A stretch of 64,000 nucleotides of DNA from Kribbella jiaozuonensis (GTDB lineage: Bacteria; Actinomycetota; Actinomycetes; Propionibacteriales; Kribbellaceae). The stretch is from the NCBI RefSeq assembly GCF_005233875.1, contig NZ_SZPZ01000004.1, positions 372,001 through 436,000 on the forward strand. Reading direction: 5' to 3'. The notes under the pieces are model-generated. The model was not told the DNA's origin, did no database searches, and was given only the letters and a program-made list of their open reading frames with translations. Positions 14,840-60,159 of the stretch are shown here, one piece after another. Each line of letters opens with the position of its first letter. Position 1 is the stretch's first letter. The position numbers were made by a program, and so were the translations under genes.

Positions 14840-15661
14840 TCAGCTGCCGATGGCGTTCTTCAGTTGGGTGGCGAAGAAGCGCTCGACGGTCGGGAGGATC
14901 CTGCGGCCGGAGTGAGCGACGCCGTCGACGAGGTCGAAGGTGATGTCGAGGCCGTGGGAGCGGTAGTTCTGCTCCAAGGTGCGGAGCCGCTCGATCCGGG
15001 TGGTGCCGGTGAGTTCGGCGCCGTCCATCCAGTTCGACTCGCCGCGGTTCATGATCTCCCAGGTCTCGATGTCCTCGGAGCCGACGACGAGCTGGATCGG
15101 GACCCGGCGGAGCGCGTCGAAGTCGATCGACTGACCGAACCGCTCCTCGAAACCCTTCGTACCGAGCCACCACGGCAGGCTGTCGTCCAGTTGGGTGATC
15201 CGGCCGGGTGCGCCGATCGATGCAGCGGCCAGACGGTCCGGATGCAGGTAGAGGAACCGGTGGGCGAACTGCCCGCCGCCGGAGAAGCCGTGCAGGTAGA
15301 ACCGCTCGGCCGCGACCGGGAACCGCTCCGCCACCTCGTCCACGATCGCCAGCAGCATCCGGTCGAAGCGGATCCCCTGGTACTCGATGAACTTGAAGTT
15401 GTGCAGGTCGGCCGGATCGACCAGCCCGGCCGGGAAGATCGGCGTCAGTACGACGACGCCGTACTCCTCGGCGAAGTCCGCCGACTGGTCGCGGTAGTTG
15501 GTCGCGGACCGCGCCGTACCGTGCTGGATCACGACCAGCGGCACGCGCTCGTCGCCGGTCAGCCGGCGTGGAACGTAGAGGCAGTAGTGCAGCCGCGGAT
15601 CGATCCGGGACGCGAAGATCGGGGTCTTGCCGCGTTGGTAGACGGTCGCGGTGTCAGTCAT
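14840..15661 (-). CDS. Alpha/beta hydrolase (esterase/feruloyl-esterase-like), block A
   Basis: This hydrolase has 273 residues. It has an oxyanion region (VVIQHGTARSATN) and the nucleophile Ser127 in GFSGGGQFAHRF, with a late Asp/His pair (VDGVAHSG) completing a Ser-Asp-His triad. No signal peptide is visible, so it acts in the cytoplasm. It closely resembles the hydrolase at 55372-56232, where the family sits beside a C45 hydrolase and a ferric-chelate importer. It is the last gene of the tldD-led operon, 13 bases after the reductase, with GAGGA before the ATG. By context it may cleave an ester in an imported chelate, as Fes/IroE-type enzymes do; that role is inferred. Confidence 0.85.
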   Translation of the reverse strand: MTDTATVYQRGKTPIFASRIDPRLHYCLYVPRRLTGDERVPLVVIQHGTARSATNYRDQSADFAEEYGVVVLTPIFPAGLVDPADLHNFKFIEYQGIRFDRMLLAIVDEVAERFPVAAERFYLHGFSGGGQFAHRFLYLHPDRLAAASIGAPGRITQLDDSLPWWLGTKGFEERFGQSIDFDALRRVPIQLVVGSEDIETWEIMNRGESNWMDGAELTGTTRIERLRTLEQNYRSHGLDITFDLVDGVAHSGRRILPTVERFFATQLKNAIGS

Positions 15662-15674
15662 GGGAGTCCTCGAT

Positions 15675-16499
15675 TCACCGACCTGTCCGGTCGGCCTGCT
15701 CGCTGATCTGGTTGGTTCGGTCGCGGCCGGCTTCGGTCGCGGCCATGACGGCGCCGCGGACACCGGCCTTCTCGAGTTCGCGGATGGCGGTGATGGTGGT
15801 GCCGCCCGGACTGCTCACGGCCGCGCGTAGGTGCACCGGGTCGTCGCCCGAGTCGCGGAGCATGGCCGCGGCACCGACTGCCGTCTGGATCACCATCTCC
15901 TCGGACAACGCGCGGGGCAGTCCGAGGAGTACGCCGGCGTCGATCAGCGCCTCGGCGAAGTAGAAGAAGAACGCCGGGCCGCTGCCGGAGAAGGCTGTGA
16001 TTGCGTTCAGCTGCGTTTCGGGGACGCGGACGACCTTGCCGACTGCTCGGAGGAGGGATTCGGCGCGGTCCAAGTGTGTGTCCTCGGCGTATGCGCCTGC
16101 GCTGATCGCGGTGATGGCTTGGCCGACCGAGGCTGCCGTATTCGGCATCGCGCGTACGACGGGTGTCTTCGGCAGGTCGCTCTCGACGCGCGCCGTGCTG
16201 ACGCCGCCGATGACCGAGATGACGAGGTGGTCGGGCGTCAGGTGCTCGGCGAGCCGGGGCAGCAGGTCCTCGATGTGGTACGGCTTCACCATGAGGACCA
16301 CGGTGTCTGACGCTCGGACGGCCTCGGCCAGCTCGGGGGTCGAGACGCCGAAGCGCTCGCGCAGGTACGCCGCTCTGTCGGGCAGCTGCTCGACCACAGA
16401 GATCTGGTCCCGATCGACGAGCGGGGTATCGCCGTCGAGCAGCCCGGACAGGAGGGCAGCGCAGATGTTGCCGCCGCCAACGATCGCGAGTCCCTTCAT
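15675..16499 (-). CDS. Pyrroline-5-carboxylate reductase-like enzyme
   Basis: This NAD(P)H-dependent oxidoreductase of the ProC family has 274 residues. A Rossmann start (IVGGGNICAALLSGLL) is followed by the family motifs RAMPNTAASVG, FSGSGPAFFF and VSSPGGTT. ProC enzymes reduce pyrroline-5-carboxylate to proline; paralogs act on other cyclic imines such as piperideine-carboxylate. Its place between a racemase/epimerase and an esterase, in an operon with a kinase/phospholyase fusion, suggests a catabolic or interconverting role and not housekeeping proline synthesis. The start overlaps the racemase stop by ATGA. Confidence 0.88.
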   Translation of the reverse strand: MKGLAIVGGGNICAALLSGLLDGDTPLVDRDQISVVEQLPDRAAYLRERFGVSTPELAEAVRASDTVVLMVKPYHIEDLLPRLAEHLTPDHLVISVIGGVSTARVESDLPKTPVVRAMPNTAASVGQAITAISAGAYAEDTHLDRAESLLRAVGKVVRVPETQLNAITAFSGSGPAFFFYFAEALIDAGVLLGLPRALSEEMVIQTAVGAAAMLRDSGDDPVHLRAAVSSPGGTTITAIRELEKAGVRGAVMAATEAGRDRTNQISEQADRTGR

Positions 16500-17506
16500 C
16501 GCAGCACGAACCCGGTGCCGAGCGGATCGCTGGGGTCCAGCGTGAAGGTGGCACGGCCGGTCTCGTAGGCCATACCGGCCACCTCGGTGATCACCGCGTC
16601 ATGCCCGTCCGCCTGGACCTGTTCGAGCACCCGGCCCAGGAACGTCGTACCGACGATCGATTCGTGCCGCAGCGTTCGCCCGATCGGCAGCCGGCCGTCC
16701 GCGGCCAGCAGGGCGATCCGCGCGGACGTACCCGATCCGCAGGGCGAGCGATCGAGCTCGCCGTCCGCGAAGATCGTGACGTTGCGCTGGTGCGGACCGT
16801 CCGCATCGTCGCCGAGATCGTCGTACAAGATCGTGCCGTAGATGCCGTCGAGGCGGCTGTCGCTGGGATGGCGGGCCCACTCGGTGTCGTTCAAGGCCCA
16901 CTTGATCTCGCGCCCGATGCTGATCAGGTCGGCGGTGTGCTCGGGTGCCACGGCAAGGCCGAGCGATCGCGCCGGGACGAAGGCGTACAGGGCGCCTCCG
17001 TAGCTGATGTCGACGTGCACCTCACCCCGGCTGGTCTTCACCTCGACGTCGCGCGCCACGACGTACGACGGGATGTTCTGGAACGCCACCTGCTGCACCT
17101 CGCCGCCCGCACACGTGACCCGTGCGACGACCCGGCCGGAAGGTACGTCGATGACGACGTCCGTGTCGCCGTCCGCCGCGGCCTCCACCTGCCCGGTACG
17201 CACCGCCCAGGCGCCGAGCGCGATCGTGCCGTGTCCGCAAGCCGTGGAGTAGCCGTCCTTGTGCCAGAACAGAACCCCGAGGTCCGCCCCGTCGTCATCG
17301 GCCGGCACCAGGAATCCGCCGTACATGTCGGCGTGGCCACGCGGCTCGTTGACCAGCAGTTGCCGTACGGCGTCGACCTCGGCCGACTGCTGCGCGTACG
17401 ACCGCCGATCCAGCACGCTCACGCCAGGAATCTCAGGCACTCCCGCCGTCACGATCCGGAACGGCTCGCCCGCGGTGTGATAGTCGGTCACGCTGATCAG
17501 GTCCAT
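16496..17506 (-). CDS. Proline racemase / 4-hydroxyproline epimerase family protein
   Basis: This cofactor-independent racemase/epimerase has 336 residues. Both catalytic cysteines are present: Cys90 in TACGHG and Cys256 in DRSPCGSGT. Two Cys residues mark epimerases/racemases, while the related trans-3-hydroxyproline dehydratases have lost the second Cys. The exact substrate (proline, hydroxyproline or another alpha-amino acid) cannot be told. Its first 10 bases overlap the end of the kinase/phospholyase fusion. In context it would interconvert the D and L forms of an amino acid released from the imported compound. Confidence 0.9.
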   Translation of the reverse strand: MDLISVTDYHTAGEPFRIVTAGVPEIPGVSVLDRRSYAQQSAEVDAVRQLLVNEPRGHADMYGGFLVPADDDGADLGVLFWHKDGYSTACGHGTIALGAWAVRTGQVEAAADGDTDVVIDVPSGRVVARVTCAGGEVQQVAFQNIPSYVVARDVEVKTSRGEVHVDISYGGALYAFVPARSLGLAVAPEHTADLISIGREIKWALNDTEWARHPSDSRLDGIYGTILYDDLGDDADGPHQRNVTIFADGELDRSPCGSGTSARIALLAADGRLPIGRTLRHESIVGTTFLGRVLEQVQADGHDAVITEVAGMAYETGRATFTLDPSDPLGTGFVLR

Positions 17507-19752
17507 CGGTCTCTCGCTTTCTGGAACGCCGCAATGAAGTACTCGACCTCGGTAGCAGACCAGATCAGCGGCGGCCGGATCTTCAGCACTCCCCCACCCG
17601 GTCCGGTCGTGCCGACGAGTACGCCGTACTCCCGCAACCGCTCGGCGAAGTCCGGAGCATCCGGCAACTCCACCCCCACGATCAGTCCCTGCCCACGCGC
17701 CGGAGTACCCAGCTCGGCCAGCCCGGCGCGCAGTAAGTCGCCGATCTCACCCGACCGCGCAACCAAGCCCCGCTCCTCGATCACATCGAGCACCGTGAGC
17801 GCCGCGACGCACGACACCGGATTGCCGGCGAACGTGCTGAAGAACTCGTCGACCGCCGCGAAGCGCTCCGCGATCTCCCGGCGCGTGATCAGCGCCGCGA
17901 CCGGATGCCCGTTACCCATCGGCTTGCCCAGCGTGACGAAGTCCGGCGTCAGCCCGAAGTCGAGGAACCGCCACAGATTCCGGCCACCACGCCCGAACCC
18001 GGCCTGCACCTCGTCCGCCAGGAACAACCCGCCGGCTTCTCGTACTTCGTCCTGCAACCCGCGCATGAAGTCGTCGCCGGGCGTCAGGATCCCCGCACTG
18101 CTGAACACACTGTCGACCGCGAGCAACGCGACCTCATGCCCGGCCAGGCGCAGCTCGTCGTACCCGGCGCGCACCCGCTCGCGCGCATCTGCGCCGGTTG
18201 GCTGCTCACCGTCCGCGGACAGCCGCGGTGCCTCGAAGATCCCCACGTGCGTAGGTCGCGCAGACGATGGGTAGGTGTTCGTCGACCAGGCAGCCGTGGC
18301 CTCGCTGACCCCGTGGTACGCGAGGTCTGCGACGAGCACTCCCGACCGGCCGGTCGCGATGCGAGCCATCCGCCAGGCGAGGTCGTTCGCCTCACTGCCC
18401 GAGTTGACGAACACGCAGGTGTCCAGTCCGTCCGGCATCGTCGTGACGAGTCGCTCGGCGAGCTCGACAGCATGTGGATGCAGGTAGCGCGAGTTCAGAT
18501 TGAGTATCGCGGCCTGTCGTGAGATCGCTTGTACGACGGCCGGATGCGCGTGGCCGACGACCGGAACGTTGTTGTAGGCATCGAGATACCGCCGCCCGTC
18601 GGCCGTGGACACCCAGGCCCCGGCCGCCCGCACGACCTGCAGAGGCTCCCGGTAGAACAGCGGCGAGAGATCACCACCGAGGGCTGCGCGCCGTCGCGGC
18701 AGCAGCGTGGGGTCGGCCACGGTCGTGACGCGCGACGTACCGCAGAGATGATGGAAACGGTCGGCGAGGTCGGTCAGCGCCGCCCACTCGTCCAGGATCC
18801 GCCAGCTACCGGTGACGAGGCTGGTCAGGTACTCCTCGTTGTCCGGGTACAGCGGCGCCCGCCAGGCCGAGATCAGGATGCTCGCGGCCGAGCGCGCCAG
18901 CACCAACTCGCCGATCAGCTCGACCTCCGCGGGGTCGAGCGGCAGGACGCGCTGGTACGCGTCCAGGAACTGCCGGGCGTCACCCCAGAGATCGTCGGAC
19001 TCGCGCAGCAACGACGTCAGGCTGATCGCGAGGTCGCAGACCCTGGCGGTGTGGTGCATGTCCCCGAAGTCGATCACGCCGGTGATCCGTCCGTCCCCGA
19101 TCAGGACGTTGCTCAGCGTCAGGTCCCCGTGCAACACCGATGCCGGCAACCCACGGGTCGCGTCCTCGAGCCCGGCGAACCGTTCGAGCAGGTCACGCAA
19201 CTGCGTCCGACGGCTTTCGTCCGGCACACTCTCGACGTATCCGCCCAGATCGACGACCAGCCGGGGATCCCAGTCGAGCTTGCGGTACGCCGCCGGGTGG
19301 CCGAACCCCTGGAGCGCCCGGGCGAACTCCGCACAGACCGTCCCGAACTCAGCCGCGAACCACGACGGAAGTGCGGTCAGATCCGCGTCCGCACCGGGCA
19401 GGACCGTGATGACGCGAACCTGATGGACGCGCCCATCAGCGGCTTCGAGGGTGGCGATCGGTTCGCCGGCGGTCGTGGGCAGGAGCCGGGGTATCGGGAG
19501 GTCCGGAGCGACTGCCTCCACGTGCTGCATCGCGGCGCACTCCATCGCGATCTGGCCGGCGTCGTCGCCCGAGTTGGAGACCTTCACCACCAGGTCCGTA
19601 CCGGCCAGGAAGTTCCGGTCGCGTTCACTCCGCAACTCGGTCAGGCGCGCGGTGACGCCGTACGTCTCGAGTAGCGACTGTGAAACCGTCGGGGTGTCGA
19701 CCGCCGGCGGATCGGCGACCATGCTCGGGGTCCGTTCCGGCGTCACGTCCAC
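17497..19752 (-). CDS. APH-like kinase fused to class III PLP phospholyase/aminotransferase, short form
   Basis: This two-domain enzyme has 751 residues. The N-terminal half (about 20-340) is an aminoglycoside-phosphotransferase-like kinase with catalytic HGDLTLSN (Asp210) and metal-binding IDFGD (Asp228). The C-terminal half (about 355-751) is a fold-I PLP enzyme with Lys610 in GKPMGNGHP. GNGHP and the later VLKIRPP motif are typical of phosphoethanolamine/phosphohydroxylysine phospholyases. The expected chemistry is phosphorylation of a 1-amino-2-hydroxy compound, then loss of ammonia and phosphate to give an aldehyde. It lacks the extra central domain of the two paralogs. The GTG at 19752 is chosen for its AAGGAG ribosome site; a long hairpin separates it from tldE. 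Confidence 0.88.
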   Translation of the reverse strand: MDVTPERTPSMVADPPAVDTPTVSQSLLETYGVTARLTELRSERDRNFLAGTDLVVKVSNSGDDAGQIAMECAAMQHVEAVAPDLPIPRLLPTTAGEPIATLEAADGRVHQVRVITVLPGADADLTALPSWFAAEFGTVCAEFARALQGFGHPAAYRKLDWDPRLVVDLGGYVESVPDESRRTQLRDLLERFAGLEDATRGLPASVLHGDLTLSNVLIGDGRITGVIDFGDMHHTARVCDLAISLTSLLRESDDLWGDARQFLDAYQRVLPLDPAEVELIGELVLARSAASILISAWRAPLYPDNEEYLTSLVTGSWRILDEWAALTDLADRFHHLCGTSRVTTVADPTLLPRRRAALGGDLSPLFYREPLQVVRAAGAWVSTADGRRYLDAYNNVPVVGHAHPAVVQAISRQAAILNLNSRYLHPHAVELAERLVTTMPDGLDTCVFVNSGSEANDLAWRMARIATGRSGVLVADLAYHGVSEATAAWSTNTYPSSARPTHVGIFEAPRLSADGEQPTGADARERVRAGYDELRLAGHEVALLAVDSVFSSAGILTPGDDFMRGLQDEVREAGGLFLADEVQAGFGRGGRNLWRFLDFGLTPDFVTLGKPMGNGHPVAALITRREIAERFAAVDEFFSTFAGNPVSCVAALTVLDVIEERGLVARSGEIGDLLRAGLAELGTPARGQGLIVGVELPDAPDFAERLREYGVLVGTTGPGGGVLKIRPPLIWSATEVEYFIAAFQKARDRWT

Positions 19753-19780
19753 GGCAACTCCTTCGTCCGCGCAGGTGGAA

Positions 19781-19823
19781 CAGCAGCGCCCCGCGGCTTG
19801 AGCACGTACGCGGGGCACTGCTG
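19781..19823 (-). terminator. Long hairpin between tldE and the kinase/phospholyase gene
   Basis: The arms 19781-19795 (CAGCAGCGCCCCGCG) and 19809-19823 pair at 14 of 15 positions around a 13-base loop. It starts right after the tldE stop codon and ends before the ribosome site of the next gene. No T-tract follows on the minus strand, so it may be an attenuator or an RNA-processing/stability element and not a full terminator. Confidence 0.5.
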
Positions 19824-19825
19824 GA

Positions 19826-21208
19826 TCAGGGGAGGACGAGCGGCCCGGCCTCGACCAACAGAGACGGCACGACAACGCTCTCCATGAACGTCTGGTCGCA
19901 GCGCTCGCGGGTCGATCCGATGCCGATGATCGCGTTCATCACGTCGTCCATCCGGAACGTGAACCGCAGCTGCGGATGCCAGCCGACCAGCTCGCCGTCC
20001 TCGGCCCAGTACGTCGCGTCTCGCGTCGTACCGGTGACGAGCGTCTCCTTCGGATGCAGCACCCGCAGGTAGTCGAGCCGGTTCACCACCAGGCCGCTGC
20101 CGGTCTCGGCCAGCAGTTCGTCCTCACTCGACGTACCCGCGTCGAGCAGCAGATGCGACGGGACGGGATCTCCCCCGAACCGCCATCCGTCCGGTACGGC
20201 GTGACCGGTCGGCACTCCGCCCGTGACGCCGGCCCGGCGACGGTCCGACACCAGCCCGACGAGCACGCCCTTCTCGAGCAGCGGTGTCCGCCGCCGAACG
20301 TTGCCTTCAGCATCGAATCCGCTGGGCAGCCCGTCCGGGTCGCAGCCGTCGTCGACGAGGGTCACCAGGTCACTGGCGACCTTCTCGCCGAGCCGGCCGG
20401 AGACGACCGACCGCCCGGTCGCATACGCGTTCGCGCCGAGGACCGCGTAGCCGTAGGTGGCGATCAGCGCGTTGGCGGCTTGTGGCTTGAGCAGCACCCG
20501 GCAGGTGCCGTGCCGGGCGTCGATCGTCGGCAGCGGCCGAAGGGCGGCGCGCAGCCGGTCGGGGATCTCCTCGATCGGGAGCTGGTCGGCGTCGCGGTGC
20601 ATCAGCCTGACGCTCACGGACCGGCCGTCCTGTTTGGCGATCGCCTGGATCGATGCCTTGGTCAACGTCTCGGCGCGGAACAGGCCGTTGGCATCGGCAA
20701 CGACCCGATCGAGGACGTCGTACCGGATGGCGCCGCCGAGCGTGGCCGACGAGTCCAGGCCGTCGCGCACGGTCGTGAACCAGCGGTGCCGGACGGCCGG
20801 ATCCGATTCGAGCACCGACGCAGCCGCCGGGATGACGGGCGTCGCCACCGAGTGATCACCGCCGTCGTGTACGGCGTCTGGGGTTGCCTCGGACGGGATG
20901 GGTGGGAGGTCGGAGATGGCTGCGTTCAGGCGGTCCGCGAGGGAGCGGACCGCGTCGGGGTCCAGCGTCTCCAGCGATCCGGCGACCGATCGGCCGTTCC
21001 GGTCGACGCGGACGCGGACCCGGAGCCGGCGTTCGCTGTGCTGAGCGGTGATCGCGGACTCGGCGTACCGCAGGAGATCTGCATGCTCGCCGAGGATGTC
21101 GAGCCGCGCGCCGTCGCCGAGAATCTCCAGCGCCCGACGGACGTCCGCTTCTTTTACCCCCGCCGAGCGAAGCGAGGCGGGGTCTGTCTCCTTTGTCCTG
21201 TTCTTCAT
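19826..21208 (-). CDS. tldE: TldE/PmbA-like subunit of a TldD-TldE protease
   Basis: This protein has 460 residues and is the non-catalytic partner of TldD. The pair forms a heteromeric metalloprotease that degrades unfolded or modified small peptides and matures some peptide natural products (microcin B17). The PmbA/TldE fold is recognised from the C-terminal region (GSGLVVNRLDYLRVLHPKET, VTGTTRDATYW, IGIGSTRER); no HExxxH motif is present, as expected. It overlaps tldD by ATGA. The first 18 codons include a GC-rich palindrome and look unlike the rest of the family. A peptidase pair inside a chelate-uptake region suggests that the imported compound has peptide bonds. Confidence 0.88.
   Translation of the reverse strand: MKNRTKETDPASLRSAGVKEADVRRALEILGDGARLDILGEHADLLRYAESAITAQHSERRLRVRVRVDRNGRSVAGSLETLDPDAVRSLADRLNAAISDLPPIPSEATPDAVHDGGDHSVATPVIPAAASVLESDPAVRHRWFTTVRDGLDSSATLGGAIRYDVLDRVVADANGLFRAETLTKASIQAIAKQDGRSVSVRLMHRDADQLPIEEIPDRLRAALRPLPTIDARHGTCRVLLKPQAANALIATYGYAVLGANAYATGRSVVSGRLGEKVASDLVTLVDDGCDPDGLPSGFDAEGNVRRRTPLLEKGVLVGLVSDRRRAGVTGGVPTGHAVPDGWRFGGDPVPSHLLLDAGTSSEDELLAETGSGLVVNRLDYLRVLHPKETLVTGTTRDATYWAEDGELVGWHPQLRFTFRMDDVMNAIIGIGSTRERCDQTFMESVVVPSLLVEAGPLVLP
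21158..21182. repeat. GC-rich palindrome inside the 5' end of tldE
   Basis: CCCCGCC (21158-21164) and GGCGGGG (21176-21182) flank an 11-base loop with a GAGCGAAGCGA core. It encodes part of the odd N-terminal extension of TldE. Small palindromes of this look are often dispersed in actinobacterial genomes, so it may be an inserted mobile palindrome; only one copy is in the window. Confidence 0.35.
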
Positions 21209-22662: not shown

Positions 22663-22703
22663 GAGTCGGACCTCCGATGCACAAGGTTGGGTTGATACCG
22701 ACA

Positions 22704-22751
22704 CTGTAGCAGACACTACAGGATTTCGTCAGTCTGTTGTTTTCACTACAG
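22704..22751. promoter_or_regulatory. Paired CTGTAG-N6-CTACAG operators before tldD
   Basis: CTGTAG-N6-CTACAG occupies 22704-22721 with perfect 6-base arms. A second copy, CTGTTG-N6-CTACAG, occupies 22734-22751. The two are exactly 30 bases apart. A similar pair with the same 30-base offset lies at 28881-28928 beside the RpiR gene, which is therefore the best candidate regulator. Confidence 0.6.
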
Positions 22752-24524: not shown

Positions 24525-24533
24525 GAGGAGGTC

Positions 24534-26623: not shown

Positions 26624-26624
26624 G

Positions 26625-28860: not shown

Positions 28861-28880
28861 GGAGAGCTCCCTGCACTGGG

Positions 28881-28928
28881 CCGTTGTGTCCACTACGAAT
28901 ATTCACCTGACGGTAGTGATTGCTACAA
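28881..28928. promoter_or_regulatory. Paired inverted-repeat operators between the C45 gene and rpiR
   Basis: CGGTAG-N6-CTACAA (28911-28928) and the weaker CCGTTG-N6-CTACGA (28881-28898) follow the pattern seen before tldD and keep the same 30-base offset. They lie in the divergent region between the block A importer operon and the RpiR gene, so one regulator could control import, breakdown and itself. Confidence 0.55.
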
Positions 28929-28991
28929 TCGCTGTCAACGGATTCGCTGATGAAAAGATCTGCCGGGAGCGAATCGGACGGGAGGGATGTC

Positions 28992-30504: not shown

Positions 30505-30514
30505 GCCGGACAGG

Positions 30515-51432: not shown

Positions 51433-51444
51433 TACACCCCACAG

Positions 51445-51459
51445 GATTGGTGAACAATG
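51445..51459. promoter_or_regulatory. GntR-type operator before the second long fusion gene
   Basis: Read on the minus strand this is CATTGTTCACCAATC, matching the two operators at 43387-43428 at 12 or more of 15 positions. An overlapping half-site ACCAATG follows at 51461-51467. It lies 13 bases before the ATG at 51432, in the divergent region with the GntR gene. Confidence 0.55.
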
Positions 51460-51533
51460 CACCAATGCTACCATGGTCGCAGAGCGCGATAGAGTGCGCT
51501 GGGAGCTTCACGCAGGGTGAGAGAGGGGGCCGC

Positions 51534-52235: not shown

Positions 52236-52258
52236 CCGTCGTACCCCGCCTTCAGTTG

Positions 52259-52443: not shown

Positions 52444-54132
52444 TCAGTCGGCTGTGTGGACGAGGCGGCCTGCGAGGTACGTGCGGTCGACGCGGGCGCG
52501 GAGTAGGACTTCTGGGGGGCCGGTGCGGATGTTTTCGGTGAGGATTATGAAGTCGGCCAGTTTGCCGGGGGTGATGGTGCCCTTTACGTCCTCCTCGTGG
52601 GAGGAGTAAGCGGGGTTGGCGGTGTAGGCGAGGAGGGCCTCGTCGATGGTGATTGCCTGGTCGGGGTGGAACGGCTCGCCGTCCGCCGCATCGCAGGCGG
52701 TGCGGGTGATGGCGGCGTACATGTTGCGGAGCGGATCGATCTCGGCGACGTGGGACTTGTTGAACGCGCCGGGGAGGTCCGAGACGAGGTTGACTGTGAT
52801 GTCGCTGTCGATCATCCGGCGCCAGGCGAACGCATTCGCCGAGCGGGCGGCGCCGAGCGCCGCGTCGAGGTTCGTGGAGTAGAGCAGAAGCTGGTCCGAC
52901 GTCACGTCGGCGACCAGCCCCAGCTTGCCGGCGCGCGCGAAATCACCGGCCGCTAGATGCCACGCATGGATGAGCCGATGCCGCCGGTCCCGCGGTCCGT
53001 TCAACAGCGCCGCCCGCTCGAACGCGTCGATCGCGATCCGGCACCCACGATCACCCTGCACATGTACGCCGATGTCGAATCCAGCCGCATCCCCCGCCAG
53101 CACCAGCTCGGCCAACCGTTCCTCCCCGACGAAGCGGTACGACCAGCCGTCGGTCAGCCCGGTGCCCGGCGCATCAGCGGGATCGAACGGCGGCAACATC
53201 GCACCGCTGTCGACGAAGATCTTGAGCGCCCCGAACCGCAGCCAATCGTCCCCCGTCTTCGGTGTAACGCCGTGACCAGCCAACCGATCATGCGTGTCGA
53301 GCGGGAGGAACGCATAAACCCGCACCGACAGCTCGCCGCGGTCCGCAAGCGTCTGGAAGATCTGCGCGTTCGAGAAACTCCGCTCGAGAAACACCGGCGG
53401 GATCGTCTCCTCGGTCACCGACGGCAGCCGCGCGATGTCATGGATCGAGGTGATCCCGACCGCGTTCAATCGCGCCATCACCCCACGAGCACCAATCAGC
53501 TTCTGCTCGAGCGACATCGGCGTAACCAGTCGGTGCACGAACTCGCCGGCCTGCCCGTACAGCATCCCGGTGAGCTCTCCCCCCGCATCCCGGCCGAACC
53601 TGCCGCCACGCGGATCCGGCGTACCGCGGTCAATGTTCGCGACCCCCAGCGCCTTCGAATTGGCAAAGTACTGGTGATCTGCCCGGCGGATCAGCAGCGG
53701 ATTGTCCGGCGTCAGCGCATCAATCGCGGCCAGATCCGGCTCGAGCAGCGTGACCTCGTCCTCGCGAGTGGACGCGAAGTCCCCGAGGTCTCCCCCGGTG
53801 ATCCACACCCCAGGCGTCAGTCGCGCGGCCGTGGCCGCTACGCGTTCCTCGAGCCGGGCCTGGTCGTTGACGTCGGTCAGCGCGACCTGGAAGTGCCAGT
53901 CGACGGCGTTCTCGAAATGCGTATGCGCATCGTTGAACCCCGGGCACACCATCCGCCCGGCCAGGTCGAGCACCTCGGTGCCCTCGCCCGCCAGGGACAG
54001 GATCTCGGCGTCCTCGCCGACTTGGACGATCCGGTCCCCCGCGACGGCGAAGGCGGACGCGAGCGGGCGGTTCGGATCGGCTGTCCAGACGGTTCCGCCG
54101 TACACGATCAGGTCCAGCGATGGGGTGGTCAT
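52444..54132 (-). CDS. YtcJ-like amidohydrolase
   Basis: This metal-dependent amidohydrolase has 562 residues and belongs to the amidohydrolase 3 family. The first metal motif is HTHFEN near residue 70, an N-terminal beta domain (VYGGTVWTADPNRP) and its C-terminal return (GKLADFIIL) frame the barrel, and later His ligands lie in HVQGDRG and HAWHL. Members hydrolyse amides, carbamates or ureas on small molecules. GAGGAG precedes the ATG. It is divergent from block B and shares with it an intergenic region with inverted repeats, so it may take part in breaking the same compound. Confidence 0.88.
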   Translation of the reverse strand: MTTPSLDLIVYGGTVWTADPNRPLASAFAVAGDRIVQVGEDAEILSLAGEGTEVLDLAGRMVCPGFNDAHTHFENAVDWHFQVALTDVNDQARLEERVAATAARLTPGVWITGGDLGDFASTREDEVTLLEPDLAAIDALTPDNPLLIRRADHQYFANSKALGVANIDRGTPDPRGGRFGRDAGGELTGMLYGQAGEFVHRLVTPMSLEQKLIGARGVMARLNAVGITSIHDIARLPSVTEETIPPVFLERSFSNAQIFQTLADRGELSVRVYAFLPLDTHDRLAGHGVTPKTGDDWLRFGALKIFVDSGAMLPPFDPADAPGTGLTDGWSYRFVGEERLAELVLAGDAAGFDIGVHVQGDRGCRIAIDAFERAALLNGPRDRRHRLIHAWHLAAGDFARAGKLGLVADVTSDQLLLYSTNLDAALGAARSANAFAWRRMIDSDITVNLVSDLPGAFNKSHVAEIDPLRNMYAAITRTACDAADGEPFHPDQAITIDEALLAYTANPAYSSHEEDVKGTITPGKLADFIILTENIRTGPPEVLLRARVDRTYLAGRLVHTAD

Positions 54133-54174: not shown

Positions 54175-54204
54175 GGTCTGGACAGACCGTAATAGTCGTT
54201 ACAG
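54175..54204. promoter_or_regulatory. Inverted repeats between the amidohydrolase and block B
   Basis: GGTCTG-GA-CAGACC (54175-54188) is directly followed by CCGTAA-N6-TTACAG (54187-54204). The second keeps the GTAR-N6-YTAC layout of the operators before tldD and the first rpiR, with A/T in place of G/C at one position. It is a candidate site for an RpiR paralog controlling block B and the amidohydrolase. Confidence 0.45.
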
Positions 54205-54256: not shown

Positions 54257-55375
54257 GTGCCGAGTCTCCGAGTCATCGAGATAGCCAGCCCGTCGGCCCT
54301 GGAACGCGGCCGGCAGTACGGGACTGCCGCGGCGGAGCTGATCGCCGACGCGATCGCCTACTACCGGGAGGCCTTCGCGTACCAGGCCGGTCTGACCTGG
54401 GACCAGGCGCTCGATCACACCCGTCCGTGGCAGCGCCTCGTCGAGCGGGACCACCCCGAGTTGCTGGCCGAGATGGCCGGGATCGCCGAAGGCGCCGGTG
54501 TCACGCTGCCGGAGGTCCTCGCCCTGAACTGCCGCGGCGAGATCATCTACGACAACTGGTTCCCGGACTCCCCCGCCGACGGCTGTACGTCGTTCTCCCT
54601 GATCGACGGCGCCGCGGGCGACGGCCACGTGTACGCCGGCCAGAACTGGGACTGGCGCGAAGCGGTCCGCGGCACCGTCGTGATCCTCCGCGTCGTGCAG
54701 CCGCCGAAGCCGACGCTGATCATGCAGGTCGAGGCCGGGCAGATCGGCCGCCACGGCGCGAACTCCGCCGGCCTCGCACTGAACGCGAACGGGCTGGGCG
54801 GACGGTTCGACGACTCGGCCGGGATGCCGCAGACGTTCATCCGCCGCGCGGTCCTCGACGCGGCGAACATCGCCGACGCGGTCAAGATCCTCACCTCGAC
54901 CACCGCCCACATCCCGAGCAACGCGCTCCTCACCCACCGGGACGGCTTCTCGATCGACATCGAGACCACGCCGGGCGGCCACGGCTGGGAGTACGGCGAG
55001 AACGGACTGCTTGTGCACGGCAACCATTACCAGGTGCTCAGCCCACGGGAGGTCGGCAGCTCCGGCCGGCTGATCTCACCCGACTCGCTGATCCGCGTAC
55101 CGCGCGCCCGCCGCGGGCTGGTGAAGGCCGCCGAAGCGACCACGCCCGACGACGTCCGGAACACCGTCCACACAGCGATGTCGGACCACCTCGGCCACCC
55201 GGACTCGCTCTGCGCGCACCCGGACGAGCGTCTTCCCGCCGTCGAGCAATGGTCCACAACCTTGTCCAGCTGCGTCGACCTCACCACCGGCGAGTACTAC
55301 GTGGCCGCGGGACCGCCGTGCGAGAACAAGTACGAACTCGTCCCGTTCAACCTGTACAACGAGGTGCGCCCATGA
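54257..55375 (+). CDS. C45-family Ntn-hydrolase (acyltransferase/amidase-like), block B
   Basis: This protein of 372 residues is the paralog of 27691-28860, about half identical. The predicted self-cleavage site lies before Cys110 in DGCTSFSL; AGQNWDW, GRHGANSAGLALNANGLG and LLVHGNHYQ are conserved. It has a GTG start with GAGGA about 8 bases upstream and no signal peptide. It heads block B and overlaps the hydrolase gene by ATGA, so amide and ester hydrolysis are directly coupled here. The larger divergence of the hydrolases than of the transporter ATPases suggests that the two blocks handle related but different chelates. Confidence 0.9.
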   Translation: MPSLRVIEIASPSALERGRQYGTAAAELIADAIAYYREAFAYQAGLTWDQALDHTRPWQRLVERDHPELLAEMAGIAEGAGVTLPEVLALNCRGEIIYDNWFPDSPADGCTSFSLIDGAAGDGHVYAGQNWDWREAVRGTVVILRVVQPPKPTLIMQVEAGQIGRHGANSAGLALNANGLGGRFDDSAGMPQTFIRRAVLDAANIADAVKILTSTTAHIPSNALLTHRDGFSIDIETTPGGHGWEYGENGLLVHGNHYQVLSPREVGSSGRLISPDSLIRVPRARRGLVKAAEATTPDDVRNTVHTAMSDHLGHPDSLCAHPDERLPAVEQWSTTLSSCVDLTTGEYYVAAGPPCENKYELVPFNLYNEVRP

Positions 55376-56232
55376 TCGCGGGGACCTCCGCCCACTTCGC
55401 GTGCGGCAAGACGCCGATCTTCGCCTCGCAGTACGACCAGCGACTCGGCTACTGCCTCTACGTGCCGGAGAACCTGCGCACCGACCGGGCCCCGCTGCTC
55501 GTCATGCAGCACGGCACCGAGCGCAACGCGTCGTTGTACCGCGACCACATGGCGGAGTTCGCCGACGAGCACCAGGTCGTCGTACTCGCGCCGCTCTTCC
55601 CGGCCGGGATCATCGATCCGGAGGATCTGCACAACTTCAAGTTCATCGAGTACCAAGGCATCCGGTACGACCAGGCGTTGCTCGCGATGGTCGACGAAGT
55701 CAGCCGCCGGTACCCGGTCGACCCGGATGTCTTTTATCTGCACGGCTTCTCCGGCGGCGGCCAGTTCGCGCACCGCTTCCTCTATCTGCATCCCGATCGG
55801 CTCGCCGGAGTCTCGATCGGCGCTCCCGGCCGGATCACCCAACTCGACGACAGCCTGCCGTGGTGGCTCGGTACGAAGGATCTCGAGCAGCGCTTCGGCC
55901 GTGCCGTCGACCTAGAGTCCCTGCGCCGGGTGCCGATCCTGATGGTTGTCGGCGACAACGACGTCGAGACCTGGGAGATCGACAACCCCGGCGAGGCTAA
56001 CTGGATGGACGGCGTCGAGAAGACCGGCAGCACCCGGATCGAACGCCTGCGCACACTCGAGCGCGACTTCCTTGCCCAGGGCATCGATGTCCGGTTCGAG
56101 CTGGTCCCCGGAGTCGCCCACCGCGGCTCATTGATCCTCCCGGCCGTCCGGGACTTCTTCGCCGGACTGCTGCGGTCCCGGCCCGAGATTCACCGCCCCA
56201 CCCCTGTAACGCATCTTCGACACCAGGAGTGA
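55372..56232 (+). CDS. Alpha/beta hydrolase (esterase-like), block B
   Basis: This hydrolase has 286 residues and is the close paralog of 14840-15661. The nucleophile is Ser127 in GFSGGGQFAHRF, with VMQHGTERNASLY as the oxyanion region and a late VPGVAHRG His. It has no signal peptide. It lies between the C45 gene (ATGA overlap) and the binding-protein gene. A cytoplasmic esterase inside a ferric-chelate import operon is the usual place for an enzyme that releases metal by opening the chelator; this is inferred from context. Confidence 0.88.
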   Translation: MIAGTSAHFACGKTPIFASQYDQRLGYCLYVPENLRTDRAPLLVMQHGTERNASLYRDHMAEFADEHQVVVLAPLFPAGIIDPEDLHNFKFIEYQGIRYDQALLAMVDEVSRRYPVDPDVFYLHGFSGGGQFAHRFLYLHPDRLAGVSIGAPGRITQLDDSLPWWLGTKDLEQRFGRAVDLESLRRVPILMVVGDNDVETWEIDNPGEANWMDGVEKTGSTRIERLRTLERDFLAQGIDVRFELVPGVAHRGSLILPAVRDFFAGLLRSRPEIHRPTPVTHLRHQE

Positions 56233-56237
56233 TTGCC

Positions 56238-57257
56238 ATGTCCAACACCGCTTCGAGGCTGCGGCGGTCGATCGCCCTCCTCACCTTGACCGTCGCGGCG
56301 GTCGGCCTGGCCGGGTGCAACACGTCCGGGTCGCCGGCCACCGGCGGCGCACCGAACGCCAACCGGGCCGCGGCCGCACAGGGGATCAGTTCGGACGTCA
56401 ATCTCGAGCAGTGCGGCAAGACGACCAGGACGATCAAGCACGACCTCGGTACGACGACTGTCACCGGCGACCCGAAGCGGGTCGTCGCGCTCGAGTTCTC
56501 GTTCGTCGACGCGCTGGTCGCGGTCGGGATGGCACCGGTCGGGGTCGCCGACGACGACAAGCCGGAACGGATCATCCCCGGTCTGAAGGAGAAGGTCGGC
56601 AACTACAAGTCGGTCGGTCTACGCGCGACCCCGAACATCCAGGTGCTGACCGCGCTCAAACCGGACCTGATCCTGGCCGACAGCGGCCGGCACAAGGCGA
56701 TCTACGCCCAGCTGTCGAAGATCGCTCCGACCGTGGCCTACGCCAGCCTGAACGGCAACTACCAGCAGGTGCTCGACAGCGAGATGTCGACCGCGATCGC
56801 CTTGAACAAGTGCGACCAGATGAAGACCCGGCTGGCCGAGCACGACAAGATCCTGACCGATCTGAAGGCCAAGGCGAAGTCCGGTGAGACGCGCAAGGCG
56901 TTGTTCGCGGTGTCGTCCGACAAGGAGTTCACCGGGTTCCCGCCGAAGGCCTACACCCCCGGCGTACTGGCCCTGCTCGGGATCAAGTCCCCGCTGGCCG
57001 ACGACAGCGGCGACGCGACGGTCTCGCTCACGCTGGAGACCGTGGTCAGCACCAAGCCCGACATCATGTTCATCGCCGGTCAGAACGGCGACACCCTGGC
57101 CGACACGTGGGAGAAAAGTCCACTCTGGAAGCAGATTCCGGCGGTCAAGGACAACGCGACGTACAAGGTCGACCAGAACGTCTGGTCCCGCTCGCGCGGT
57201 CTGGTCGCCTCGGAGATGATCGCCCAGGAAGCGGTCAAGAACCTCTACGGGAGCTGA
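56238..57257 (+). CDS. FecB-type ferric-chelate binding lipoprotein, block B
   Basis: This binding lipoprotein has 339 residues. The signal ends with the lipobox LAGC (Cys near 29), followed by a Gly/Ala-rich linker and the two-lobe binding domain with VVALEFSFVDALVAVGMAP, LKPDLILADSGRHKAIY and WSRSRGLVASE. The ATG at 56238 has AGGAG about 8 bases upstream; a GTG at 56229 is less likely. Its ligand-contact halves differ more from block A than the ATPases do, which fits a different but related ligand. Confidence 0.92.
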   Translation: MSNTASRLRRSIALLTLTVAAVGLAGCNTSGSPATGGAPNANRAAAAQGISSDVNLEQCGKTTRTIKHDLGTTTVTGDPKRVVALEFSFVDALVAVGMAPVGVADDDKPERIIPGLKEKVGNYKSVGLRATPNIQVLTALKPDLILADSGRHKAIYAQLSKIAPTVAYASLNGNYQQVLDSEMSTAIALNKCDQMKTRLAEHDKILTDLKAKAKSGETRKALFAVSSDKEFTGFPPKAYTPGVLALLGIKSPLADDSGDATVSLTLETVVSTKPDIMFIAGQNGDTLADTWEKSPLWKQIPAVKDNATYKVDQNVWSRSRGLVASEMIAQEAVKNLYGS

Positions 57258-57258
57258 C

Positions 57259-58311
57259 ATGGTCCAGACAGAGGTCGCGCCTCTACCCACCGACCACCGG
57301 CGCCCGAAGATCGTCACCAGCAAGCAGCGGGTCACCTGGGTGGCCCTGGTCCTGCTGGCCCTGCTGGTGATCGGCGTCGTCTGGGGTCTGTCGATCGGCA
57401 GTCAGCACATCTCGCTGTCGCGGTTGCCCGGAGCAATCTTCAAGGCCGATGATTCGGACGAGTTGATCCTCCAGTCGATCCGGATGCCGCGAGTCGTGCT
57501 GGGCTTGCTGGTCGGTGCCGCACTGGCGGTCGCGGGCGCGCTGATGCAGGCGGTTGCCGCCAACCCGCTGGCGGCGCCGGAGATCATGGGCGTCAACGCA
57601 GGTGCGGTGTTCGTGGTGGTGCTCGCGGTGACCGTCGTACCGTCGCTGTCCGGCGCGCCCACGATTCTCCTGGCGTTCGGCGGCGCCGCCGTGGCAGGCG
57701 TGTCGGTGATGCTGCTGGCAGGGTCAGGGCGCGGGCGGGTGAGTCCGGTCCGGTTGGCCCTGGCCGGCGTCACGGCGAGCAGTCTGCTGATCTCGCTCAC
57801 CCAGGTGCTGATCATCTTCGACGAGAACTCCGCGGACAGCGTGCTGTTCTGGCTCGTCGGCGGCGTGAACTTCGCCGGCTGGGGCGACATCCGCAACCTG
57901 CTCCCCTGGCTCGCCATCGGGCTGGTCGGCGCGTTCTCGATGTCCCGCTCGCTCAACCTGCTCGCTCTCGGCGACGACATGGCGCGCGGCCTCGGTCAGA
58001 ACGTCGAACGGACCCGCCTGCTCGGTTCGGCGTTCGTCGTGGTGCTGTGCGGTTCGGCCGTCTCCGTTGCCGGTCCGGTCGCGTTCATCGGCCTGATCGT
58101 GCCGCACATCATCCGACGGCTGGCCGGCTCCAACTACACCGTGCTGCTCCCCCTGTGCGCGGCCGCCGGGAGTGTCCTCGTCCTGTACGCCGACATCCTG
58201 TCCCGCTACGTCAAACCGCCGTACGAGGTCCCGGCCGGCGTGGTGACCGCACTCATCGGTGCACCGATCTTCGTGTACTTGGCCCGTCGACAGAAGGTGA
58301 CTTCATCGTGA
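57259..58311 (+). CDS. FecCD-family permease, first subunit, block B
   Basis: This membrane subunit of 350 residues corresponds to 25559-26623. It has GALMQAVAANPLAAPEIMG and the coupling loop AFIGLIVPHIIRR, and about nine helices after a 30-residue cytoplasmic start. It begins one base after the binding-protein stop and overlaps the second permease by GTGA, the same spacing plan as block A. Confidence 0.94.
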   Translation: MVQTEVAPLPTDHRRPKIVTSKQRVTWVALVLLALLVIGVVWGLSIGSQHISLSRLPGAIFKADDSDELILQSIRMPRVVLGLLVGAALAVAGALMQAVAANPLAAPEIMGVNAGAVFVVVLAVTVVPSLSGAPTILLAFGGAAVAGVSVMLLAGSGRGRVSPVRLALAGVTASSLLISLTQVLIIFDENSADSVLFWLVGGVNFAGWGDIRNLLPWLAIGLVGAFSMSRSLNLLALGDDMARGLGQNVERTRLLGSAFVVVLCGSAVSVAGPVAFIGLIVPHIIRRLAGSNYTVLLPLCAAAGSVLVLYADILSRYVKPPYEVPAGVVTALIGAPIFVYLARRQKVTSS

Positions 58312-59333
58312 GTACTGCGATCGTCGCGCAGCACGTCCGGCGGACGACGCTGGCCCAGCGGTATCCGCATGTCCTGATGGGATCGCTCGGCGTGCTGGCC
58401 GTCGTGCTCAGCTTCTACAGCCTCAGCGTCGGCGCCACCGACGTGTCGATGCACGACGTGTTCAACGCCCTCACCGGCAACACCAGCGATCAGGCCGCGC
58501 AGATCGTGGTCGACTTCGAGTTGCCGCGAGTGATTCTCGCCTGGCTGGTCGGCATCGCGCTGGCTGTCTCCGGTGGGGTGATGCAGGGCGTCATCCGTAA
58601 CCCGCTGGCCGCTCCCGATGTCGTTGGTGTGACCAAGGGTGCCGGGTTCGCGGGCATGCTGTTGCTGCTCGCGATCCCGGGCGTTCCGGTGCTGGCCGTC
58701 GTACCGGCGGCCTTCCTCGGTGGGCTGCTCGCCGCGGCGCTGGTGTACCTGCTGGCGTACCGGCGTGGCGCGACGCCGGTACGGATAGCGCTTGTCGGTG
58801 TCGCGGTGAGCGCGGCGTTCGAGGCGGGCATCCGGTTCCTGCTGGTTCGGAATCCGCTCGATGTCAGTGCGGCGCTGATCTGGCTGACCGGCAGTCTGTT
58901 CGGCCGGTCGATGAGCTCGGTGTACGAGATTCTCCCGTGGGTCGTGGTGCTGGTGCCGTTGGTGCTGATCTGGGCCCGGAAGCTCGACGTACTCGGACTC
59001 GGCGACGACCTGGCCGCCGGACTCGGCGAGCCGGTCGAGAAGACCCGGCGGCTACTGCTGCTGTTCGCGGTCGCACTTGCCTCGTCGGCCGTCGCAGTGT
59101 CCGGGACCATCGGGTTCATCGGGTTGATCGCGCCGCACATGGCCCGCCGCGTCTTCGGCGGCCGGCACCTCGCGTCGCTGCCGTCGGCCGCGCTGTTCGG
59201 CGTACTGCTGATGCTGTTCGCCGACATGCTCGGCCGCGGTCTCGCGCCGCCACTCGAGATCCCGGCCGGCCTGGTGACCGCGGTCATCGGCGGTCCGTAC
59301 TTCCTGTACCTGCTCGTGAAGACCGGAAAGTAG
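58308..59333 (+). CDS. FecCD-family permease, second subunit, block B
   Basis: This membrane subunit of 341 residues corresponds to 24534-25562 and has a GTG start overlapping the first permease. GGVMQGVIRNPLAAPDVVGV and GFIGLIAPHMARR are conserved, and most of the sequence is shared with the block A copy. It pairs with 57259-58311 to form the channel. Confidence 0.94.
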   Translation: MSTAIVAQHVRRTTLAQRYPHVLMGSLGVLAVVLSFYSLSVGATDVSMHDVFNALTGNTSDQAAQIVVDFELPRVILAWLVGIALAVSGGVMQGVIRNPLAAPDVVGVTKGAGFAGMLLLLAIPGVPVLAVVPAAFLGGLLAAALVYLLAYRRGATPVRIALVGVAVSAAFEAGIRFLLVRNPLDVSAALIWLTGSLFGRSMSSVYEILPWVVVLVPLVLIWARKLDVLGLGDDLAAGLGEPVEKTRRLLLLFAVALASSAVAVSGTIGFIGLIAPHMARRVFGGRHLASLPSAALFGVLLMLFADMLGRGLAPPLEIPAGLVTAVIGGPYFLYLLVKTGK

Positions 59334-59343
59334 GAGACCCATC

Positions 59344-60159
59344 ATGCGACTGCAGGCACAGGGCGTCCAGCTCGCCTATGACCAGCACGTCATCGCCAAG
59401 GATCTGACGCTCACCATTCCCGACGGGAAGGTCAGCGTGCTGATCGGGCCGAACGGTTCGGGCAAGAGTACGGCGCTGCGGGCGCTGGCCCGGCTGCTCC
59501 CGCCGTCCAAGGGAAGCGTGATCCTGGACGGCAAGTCGATCCAGGACACGTCGACCAAGGAGGTGGCCCGGCTGCTCGCGATCCTGCCGCAGGTCCTGGT
59601 CGCGCCCGAGTCGATCTCGGTCGAGGATCTGGTCTGGTTCGGACGGCACCCGCACCGGGTCTCGCTCAAGGTGCCCAGTGCGGCCGACAAGGAAGCCGTC
59701 GAGTGGGCGATGGCGGTGACGCGTACGGCGGAGCTGCGGCACCAGCACGTGGATCAGCTCTCGGGTGGTCAGCGGCAGCGGGTGTGGATCGCGCTGTGCC
59801 TCGCGCAGGGTACGGATCTGATCCTCCTCGACGAGCCCACGACGTACCTGGATGTGGCTTATCAGCTCGAAGTACTCGACCTGCTGCACCAGCTGAACCA
59901 GGAGCAGGGCAAGACGGTGGCGATGGTGCTGCACGACTTCAACATGGCCGCGGAGTACGCCGACCACGTGTTCGTGATGAAGTCCGGCAAGCTCGTCACC
60001 GAGGGCACGCCGGAGGATGTGTTCACCTGCGAGATCATCCGCGACGTGTTCGGGGTCGAGTCGAAGGTCGTCCCGCACCCGGTCAGCGGCAAGCCGATGT
60101 GTATCCCGCTCCGGGCCGGTCTGCGGACCCAGCCCCAGGTGGCGGTGGTGAACTGCTGA
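59344..60159 (+). CDS. FecE-type ferric-chelate importer ATPase, block B
   Basis: This ATPase subunit has 271 residues. Walker A is GPNGSGKST, the signature is LSGGQRQRVWIA, Walker B is LILLDEPTT and the switch is VLHDFN. By eye it differs from the block A copy at only about 15 positions before a divergent C-terminal tail. Block B ends here, without the dehydratase gene that follows the ATPase in block A. A GAF-ANTAR gene starts 20 bases later. Confidence 0.94.
   Translation: MRLQAQGVQLAYDQHVIAKDLTLTIPDGKVSVLIGPNGSGKSTALRALARLLPPSKGSVILDGKSIQDTSTKEVARLLAILPQVLVAPESISVEDLVWFGRHPHRVSLKVPSAADKEAVEWAMAVTRTAELRHQHVDQLSGGQRQRVWIALCLAQGTDLILLDEPTTYLDVAYQLEVLDLLHQLNQEQGKTVAMVLHDFNMAAEYADHVFVMKSGKLVTEGTPEDVFTCEIIRDVFGVESKVVPHPVSGKPMCIPLRAGLRTQPQVAVVNC

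Follow-up and report, generated by a model that had tools for sequence, protein, structure and literature searches.

What does a gene cluster do in which importers for ferric chelates stand beside amidases, an aconitase and aldehyde dehydrogenases? This combination occurs in a 64,000-nucleotide stretch of the Kribbella jiaozuonensis genome (contig NZ_SZPZ01000004.1, positions 372,001 to 436,000; hereafter the window), between window positions 14840 and 60159. A preliminary description of the window had proposed that the cell takes up a chelator with amide and ester bonds and uses it as carbon and nitrogen source, not only as iron source, through one pathway spanning the region. Four lines of evidence, namely the anatomy of the locus, the exchange of modules between genomes, a candidate operator and the receptor group, are best explained if these genes import and break down a citrate-type chelate. 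We give about even chances to the reading that they form a substrate-induced regulon, by which a ferric citrate-based, amide-linked (carboxylate-type) siderophore would be imported and broken down as carbon and nitrogen source.

The genes of the interval 14840–60159 were taken from open reading frames (ORFs) and gene calls and assigned with Pfam (E 0.001) and NCBIfam cut-offs; start coordinates are mostly longest-ORF starts and may sit too far upstream. Every gene class listed earlier was found: two FecBCDE sets (FecE1 to FecB1, 23715–27653, minus strand; FecB2 to FecE2, 56229–60159, plus strand), a C45 N-terminal nucleophile (Ntn) hydrolase gene upstream of each (27691–28893, minus; 54257–55375, plus), two paralogous alpha/beta hydrolases (abH1 and abH2, 67% identical), three kinase/phospholyase fusions, TldD/TldE, a dehydratase and an aconitase/IDH pair. 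GabT, two aldehyde dehydrogenases (one of them with a cupin fusion), Amidohydro_3, ProC and a proline-racemase-family protein were confirmed by family. VIT1, a beta-alpha ETF fusion, a ChrB_N protein, a GDSL hydrolase and two RpiR regulators are additional to the earlier list. The 8.66-Mb genome has only two PF03417 matches, both inside the window. The features of block 1 are as follows (PLP, pyridoxal phosphate).

14840–15763, minus strand: abH1, alpha/beta hydrolase, paralogue of abH2 (Pfam)
15675–16499, minus strand: ProC-like pyrroline-5-carboxylate reductase, restricted to 3 Kribbella loci (Pfam/NCBIfam)
16496–17506, minus strand: ProRac, proline-racemase-family enzyme (Pfam/NCBIfam)
17497–19875, minus strand: KinPL1, APH kinase fused to a class-III PLP domain (Pfam)
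19826–21208, minus strand: TldE (Pfam)
21205–22716, minus strand: TldD, carrying the sequence H-E-x-x-x-H (Pfam)
22706–22719, no strand: predicted RpiR1-type operator GTAGCAGACACTAC at the TldD start (pattern match)
22729–23769, minus strand: PALP, serine/threonine-dehydratase-like enzyme (Pfam/NCBIfam)
23715–24524, minus strand: FecE1, ATPase (Pfam)
24534–25562, minus strand: FecD1, permease (Pfam)
25559–26623, minus strand: FecC1, permease (Pfam)
26625–27653, minus strand: FecB1, predicted HtsA-group substrate-binding protein (Pfam, comparison with solved chains)
27691–28893, minus strand: C45_1, autoproteolytic Ntn amidase/acyltransferase family (Pfam, NCBIfam, alignment)
28913–28926, no strand: predicted RpiR1-type operator GTAGTGATTGCTAC between C45_1 and RpiR1 (pattern match)
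28920–29933, plus strand: RpiR1 regulator, HTH_6 and SIS (Pfam)
29935–30528, minus strand: ChrB_N protein (Pfam)
30515–32272, minus strand: ETF beta-alpha fusion (Pfam, NCBIfam)
32269–32985, minus strand: VIT1-family iron/manganese transporter (Pfam)
33081–34853, minus strand: ALDHcup, aldehyde dehydrogenase-cupin fusion (Pfam/NCBIfam)
34850–37282, minus strand: AcnA, second aconitase of the genome (Pfam/NCBIfam)
37279–38325, minus strand: IDH, IDH/LeuB-family beta-decarboxylating dehydrogenase (Pfam/NCBIfam, solved relatives)
38389–39141, plus strand: GntR1 (FCD) regulator (Pfam)
39138–40124, plus strand: GDSL hydrolase (Pfam)

Of 391 genomes of the order searched with C45_2 as query, 28 had a C45 gene, and C45_1, assigned by identity to the query, was present in 15 of 38 genomes of the genus. 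The genomes with TldD (14 of the 38 at E 1e-150) and ALDHcup (11 of the 38 at E 1e-200) all lay within those 15. We took the surroundings of block 1 from 14 of the 15 (not from G043) and mapped the window proteins onto them by tblastn. The results showed that AcnA, IDH, PALP, KinPL1, GntR1 and C45_1 were present at all 14 Kribbella loci, and FecBCDE, VIT1, ETF, ChrB, RpiR1, TldD and TldE together at 13. GDSL was found at 13 loci, ALDHcup at 11, a metallo-beta-lactamase-fold protein at 8 with the threshold used, and the proline racemase and ProC at 3. An iron-permease-like protein that the window lacks, X266, was found at 11 loci; it weakly matches the OFeT_1, GDT1 and FTR1 families, above the cut-off for the first two. 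Because the genomes are related and the genes linked, these counts are not independent trials. The preliminary description had staked its proposal on co-conservation across genomes, and block 1 bears this out at 13 to 14 of the 14 loci.

Block 1 can be divided into two predicted modules: a metal module of FecBCDE, VIT1, ETF, the ChrB-like regulator, RpiR1, TldD/TldE and mostly the iron-permease-like protein, and a carbon module of C45 amidase, aconitase, IDH, aldehyde dehydrogenase, PALP dehydratase and kinase/phospholyase. The sole exception among the 14 loci, G060, is without FecBCDE, VIT1, ETF, ChrB, RpiR1, X266, TldD and TldE across the 35 kb retrieved (TldD was not found genome-wide at E 1e-150), and keeps C45_1, PALP, KinPL1, ALDHcup, AcnA, IDH, GntR1 and GDSL. 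Myceligenerans pegani has IDH (63%), AcnA (54%) and ALDH (58%) beside a C45_2-type C45 (70%), abH (68%) and a Dpp transporter, with no metal-module genes in the 21 kb seen. The Streptomyces flaveolus locus contains C45, FecBCDE, VIT1, ETF, ChrB, RpiR1, X266, TldDE, AcnA, IDH, abH and an ALDH with a separate cupin gene, and PALP and KinPL1 were not found there; that of Streptomyces sp. NRRL F-5122 is similar in the shorter stretch seen, and parts of the set occur in a Nakamurella locus and on a short Micromonospora contig. Carriers of block 1 include the strains S. flaveolus NRRL B-1589 and Kribbella kalugense VKM Ac-2570. The kinase/phospholyases, PALP, proline racemase and ProC, rightly reported as present in the window, are Kribbella additions outside the core seen in Streptomyces. 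Metal and carbon handling may be two modules that were joined and parted in evolution. More distant TldD relatives (40–46%, E 1e-100) were found in 9 further genomes among 394 of the class, and no C45 or Fec gene was seen in the 7 whose surroundings were fetched.

The two modules share a candidate operator, the palindrome GTAGYNNNNRCTAC (GTAG-N6-CTAC), with 3 matches in the window compared to 0.03 expected per 64 kb by chance. These lie at TldD (22706), in the gap between C45_1 and RpiR1 (28913), and at 4010 inside an unrelated flanking gene. The C45_1/RpiR1 site was present in all 13 metal-bearing Kribbella loci and the TldD-start site in 12 of them (not in G020), while G111 has one additional match inside the KinPL1 coding sequence. 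No match was found in the G060 locus, which is without the metal module, or in six C45_2-type loci (Myceligenerans, G075_C5, G111_C2, G060_4.17, G020_.83 and G009). In both Streptomyces Fec loci, sites stand at abH/IDH, between TldD and C45 (two) and at RpiR1 (one); the Nakamurella locus has one at TldD and the Micromonospora contig one at C45. Altogether, 43 of the 217 collected loci have a match. RpiR1 would bind GTAGYNNNNRCTAC and control block 1; the conservation of the site is observed and the binding is predicted.

A search of the window for the 19-bp DtxR/IdeR consensus, allowing up to 3 mismatches, gave 0 matches, and we ruled out an iron-regulated siderophore uptake operon on this ground. 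Judged by these sites, the regulation looks catabolic rather than iron-governed. This bears on plain iron acquisition, in which a xenosiderophore would be imported and its ligand hydrolysed solely to free the iron, as Fes does with enterobactin. FecBCDE beside hydrolases fits such a role, and EfeU/EfeO/EfeB-like genes (read by eye in G075, mapped by similarity across the 14 loci) adjoin block 1 in five loci (G093, G075_C1, G057, G114 and G096). We consider it quite unlikely, since the window has no iron box, the set includes aconitase, IDH and aldehyde dehydrogenases, the Streptomyces operator precedes abH/IDH, and the carbon genes persist in G060, which lacks the importer. In addition, transporters of the VIT1 type carry iron out of the cytosol.

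The receptor points to the kind of chelate. The best solved relatives of FecB1 are 8y4v and 8y4y (213.6 and 213.4 bits), and among other solved receptors the staphyloferrin A receptor HtsA, homologous over its length, scored 186.5, YfiY 94.7 and SirA 84.5 bits, then others. The genome has ten FecB-family matches, eight of them above the cut-off. Against HtsA, FecB1 scored 185.2 and FecB2 193.9 bits, whereas five other FecB-family proteins scored 35.5, 70.6, 47.9, 31.6 and 30.4 bits and three further PF01497 loci gave no match. By these scores FecB1 and FecB2, and none of the other FecB-family proteins of the genome, are assigned to the HtsA group, in agreement with the citrate-chelate receptor type suggested earlier. 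Both keep arginine at HtsA 86, 104, 126, 304 and 306, where pocket position numbers other than 126, 104 and 209 are those we take to apply, and the arginine at 126 also stands in 11 other cluster FecB rows. R126 is common to HtsA, SirA and YfiY, and the residues at 104 and 209 have been described as critical for HtsA (PMC10553834).

Ferric dicitrate itself might be the compound used, with C45 and the amine enzymes serving something else and merely neighbouring. FecB1 and FecB2 do match the Fe(3+)-dicitrate family PRK11411 (286.6 and 287.5 bits, below the cut-off of 320), and AcnA and IDH would suffice for citrate; this is decidedly improbable, however, because C45 heads the fec operon, shares the operator, and is retained in G060 with AcnA and IDH. 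It is very improbable indeed that the organism recycles or catabolizes its own siderophore. Its genome has 3 IucA/IucC genes, two within one cluster, but this cluster looks to be of the citrate-hydroxamate type, and it is a different FecB-family protein of the genome (L233) that matches YfiY, the receptor for schizokinen, closely (184 bits). The cluster, a putative NRPS-independent siderophore locus at C5:889000-896000 (L244), has PLP decarboxylase-, acetyltransferase- and N-monooxygenase-like genes when read by eye; the third IucA/IucC gene is on C8.

On the enzyme side, C45_1 and C45_2 scored 211.5 and 213.3 bits against NCBIfam C45_proenzyme (cut-off 85), Gly-Cys at the processing site was invariant in a 13-row alignment, and the best solved relatives are chains 2x1d, 2x1e and 2x1c of acyl-CoA:6-APA acyltransferase. 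Both are C45 Ntn-hydrolases by these matches, predicted to be self-processing amidases. The best solved relative of abH1 is the poly(aspartic acid) hydrolase PahZ1, at only 40.7 bits. The PLP half of KinPL1 matched phospholyase 5g4i with 304 bits (next non-phospholyase 162) and that of KinPL2 matched ethanolamine-phosphate phospho-lyase 6tor with 336 bits (next non-phospholyase 204), which places both, by score, nearer to proven phospholyases than to transaminases. The kinase half of KinPL3 stayed below the Pfam threshold of E 0.001, and we assigned this third fusion from its alignment with KinPL2 over 978 columns (35%).

AcnA lies above the AcnA equivalog cut-off (TIGR01341, 1034.1 bits, cut-off 945), and the other aconitase copy of the genome, on contig C5, is 60–62% identical in two pieces. 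The nearest solved chains of IDH (37279–38325) are homoisocitrate and isocitrate dehydrogenases; it has N-P-S, presumably where isocitrate dehydrogenases have S-x-N. In several Mycobacteriales-like genomes this IDH variant stands alone, without the rest of the set in the stretches seen, and in G591 two copies stand beside PrpD- and tricarboxylate-transporter-like genes (read by eye). PALP scored 242.8 against the EutB model NF005680 (cut-off 413) and no other eut genes were seen in the window by Pfam; breakdown of hydroxyectoine or ectoine was ruled out because PALP is far below the EutB cut-off. Relatives of ALDHcup in tricarboxylate loci of Agrobacterium larrymoorei and Shinella are 63–65% identical in the ALDH part and 47% in the cupin part, and these loci, like the second aconitase copy, speak for citrate on the carbon side. 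In one Sinorhizobium stretch an ABC transporter separates IDH (46%) from ALDH-cupin; we did not use it as iron evidence because its binding protein gave no more than weak scores, to phosphonate-type models.

Block 2, which the preliminary description had joined with block 1 into one pathway, has the following features.

42467–43375, plus strand: RpiR2, block 2 regulator (Pfam)
43447–44217, plus strand: SDR oxidoreductase (Pfam)
44214–47099, plus strand: KinPL2, kinase-aminotransferase-III protein (Pfam, NCBIfam)
47104–48537, plus strand: ALDH2, aminobutyraldehyde-dehydrogenase subfamily (Pfam/NCBIfam)
48559–51474, minus strand: KinPL3, kinase-aminotransferase-III protein (Pfam, NCBIfam, alignment with KinPL2)
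51336–52235, plus strand: GntR2 (FCD) regulator (Pfam)
52444–54132, minus strand: AmidoH, Amidohydro_3 (Pfam)
54187–54204, no strand: predicted RpiR2-type operator CCGTAATAGTCGTTACAG between AmidoH and C45_2 (matrix match)
54257–55375, plus strand: C45_2 (Pfam, NCBIfam, alignment)
55372–56232, plus strand: abH2, alpha/beta hydrolase (paralogue of abH1)
56229–57257, plus strand: FecB2, predicted HtsA-group substrate-binding protein (Pfam, comparison with HtsA)
57259–58311, plus strand: FecC2 (Pfam)
58308–59333, plus strand: FecD2 (Pfam)
59344–60159, plus strand: FecE2 (Pfam)

Both C45 types were retrieved from 7 Kribbella genomes. The two blocks lie together in three of these (that of the window, G105 and G093) and apart in the other 4 (G075, G111, G060 and G020). 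A single joint 45-kb pathway was therefore ruled out. The Fec proteins of the blocks are 74, 86, 90 and 93% identical for B, C, D and E. FecB2 and FecC2 branch within the Kribbella Fec radiation, in a trio with G105 and G075 (support 100/100); the FecE trees are weaker on this placement. G093 has block 2 without a Fec copy. Outside Kribbella, C45_2 relatives associate with RpiR2-type regulators and Dpp-type transporters, and in Kribbella G009, G020, G060 and G111 C45_2 is grouped with abH and Dpp. Given this Dpp association and the Fec branching inside Kribbella, block 2 is a separate C45_2 module using a copy of the block 1 importer. GabT, which had been listed with the set, is present in the window and was shared, like a LysR gene, with only one close relative (G105) among the loci examined, and was dropped as a core gene; GabT-like genes also stand near C45 in 4 Chloroflexi loci.

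Block 2 has its own candidate operator. A matrix built from 63 upstream regions of C45 loci (51 of 66 TTACA sites; consensus TTGAAATCAACATTACAG) gave its best score in the window, 23.8, at 54187 in the AmidoH/C45_2 gap, compared with 13.1 as the best of 20 first-order shuffled windows, and this site is also in G105 and G075. A weaker match before RpiR2 (42451, score 11.1) is within the shuffled range.

The company that C45 keeps elsewhere raises the alternative that importer, C45 and abH serve another amide, a peptide-like or N-acyl compound, with metal binding incidental and Fec merely carrying the compound. RpiR-type proteins (62), DppB (50) and DppA (48) are frequent near C45 among 80 named loci, RpiR-C45-DppABCDF operons are a common arrangement in Streptomyces, Nonomuraea and others (L085-L152), Rhizobiaceae also have C45-Dpp-abH, and Myceligenerans joins IDH/AcnA/ALDH to such a group, with no metal genes in the 21 kb seen. 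We rate this alternative as unlikely, because the Fec-type loci conserve VIT1, the OFeT/FTR1-like permease and the HtsA-group receptor with the set, and C45_1 is just 47% identical to C45_2. The operons of L085-L152, at about position 10001 of each locus, often have a pair of CTGAAAT-N4-ATTACAG-like sites with a spacing of about 80 bases, and a TTGACT-like box comes right after the first site; we know of no description of operons with such paired sites. On a plasmid of Shinella sp. WSC3-e (L249), two C45 genes flank a transporter of the Dpp type together with an alpha/beta hydrolase that shares 45% identity with abH1.

Returning to a citrate-type siderophore as the substrate, the genes suggest the following scheme. 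The HtsA-like FecB would bind the ferric chelate and FecCDE import it. Iron would then be released, possibly with reductant from ETF, and the surplus moved by VIT1 and, in relatives, by the second iron-permease-like protein. C45, abH and perhaps TldDE would cut the amide links, and esterases any ester links. Citrate would pass through the dedicated AcnA and IDH, whose family assignments are observed, to 2-oxoglutarate, and the amine parts would go to kinase/phospholyases, transaminases and aldehyde dehydrogenases. RpiR1 would govern block 1 through GTAGYNNNNRCTAC, and block 2 would answer to its RpiR2-type operator. Our tentative and more specific proposal is that a neighbour's ferric citrate-amide siderophore is eaten, with uptake and breakdown induced by the substrate, not by iron hunger, and the incoming iron exported.

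The compound may be rhizoferrin of soil fungi or a staphyloferrin A-, vibrioferrin- or achromobactin-like one. Vibrioferrin and achromobactin contain citrate and ethanolamine; a match to them fits the phospholyases but fails for the Streptomyces loci, whose clusters hold no counterpart of KinPL1. Rhizoferrin (two citrates and putrescine) is no tidy match either, as PALP, KinPL1, TldDE and ETF do not fit. In staphyloferrin A, corynebactin and rhizoferrin alike, a diamine or an amino acid bears two citrates (PMC7857480).

Several observations weigh against import and breakdown of such a siderophore. HtsA R299, K203, H209 and Y239 are not kept in FecB1 and FecB2, where R299 is replaced by P or Q, K203 by E or D, H209 by F and Y239 by a gap, so that the ligand need not be staphyloferrin A; a staphyloferrin A receptor proper was rejected for want of the full HtsA pocket. 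The operator match at 4010–4023, inside the 2672–5329 ORF, is far from the set and fits no known target, and of 6 genome-wide GTAGYNNNNRCTAC matches only 2 are the TldD and C45_1/RpiR1 promoters (a reversed control pattern had 53). Two Streptomyces C45 loci with no Fec in the stretch seen (L102 and L107) have two GTAGYNNNNRCTAC sites each, and the operator therefore follows the pair of RpiR1-like regulator and C45, not the metal genes alone. In most other loci C45 travels with a Dpp-type transporter and without metal genes, and its substrate may therefore not be a metal chelate everywhere. IDH is below every NCBIfam cut-off, ALDHcup is absent from 3 of the 14 Kribbella block-1 loci, and TldDE, ETF and ChrB are without a clear job in the scheme. 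The use as carbon and nitrogen source proposed in the preliminary description is supported in part, by co-conservation of block 1, the receptor group and the catabolic-looking regulation.

Compared with known systems, the locus resembles HtsABC of Staphylococcus aureus in its receptor, apart from the four pocket residues above, but its importer is joined to catabolic genes and the window has no iron box. Mesorhizobium loti LU uses deferrioxamine B as sole carbon source, with an enzyme that is probably serine peptidase-like and no gene cluster named (PMC5805875); that siderophore is a hydroxamate, whereas a citrate-type compound is proposed here. Fes/IroE and the bacillibactin and fusarinine esterases hydrolyse imported siderophores (PMC11800396), as is predicted here; iron release is the aim there, whereas aconitase, IDH and aldehyde dehydrogenases follow here. 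We found no gene cluster for citrate-type siderophore catabolism and, as the preliminary description had supposed, no pathway with this gene set in the open-licence papers searched. Growth on a siderophore as such is on record (PMC5805875). Little is known of the environmental fate of siderophores (PMC12364333), and soil siderophore consumers and their genes are largely an open question. If the proposal is true, C45_1, the HtsA-type FecB, TldD and the GTAG-N6-CTAC operator would be markers that make siderophore turnover testable, with named strains and a short list of candidate chelates, and an iron importer adjoining a hydrolase could not be read as iron acquisition by default.

Two other kinds of locus share parts of the set. 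RpiR-C45-DppABCDF operons of Streptomyces and others have homologous C45 and RpiR, and the block 2 operator fits the motif from those loci, but their transporter is of the Dpp type and most stretches seen have no aconitase/IDH/ALDH set. The tricarboxylate locus of Agrobacterium larrymoorei plasmid pAlCFBP5477 has an ALDH and cupin pair beside acnA, citrate:proton symporters and TctABC, and a Shinella pair stands beside TctABC; unlike block 1, these Rhizobiaceae loci show no annotated C45, FecBCDE, VIT1 or TldDE gene over the stretches seen. Among these Agrobacterium and Shinella plasmids (L247, L248 and L252), the Agrobacterium ALDH and cupin locus also has an ABC transporter annotated as an iron permease.

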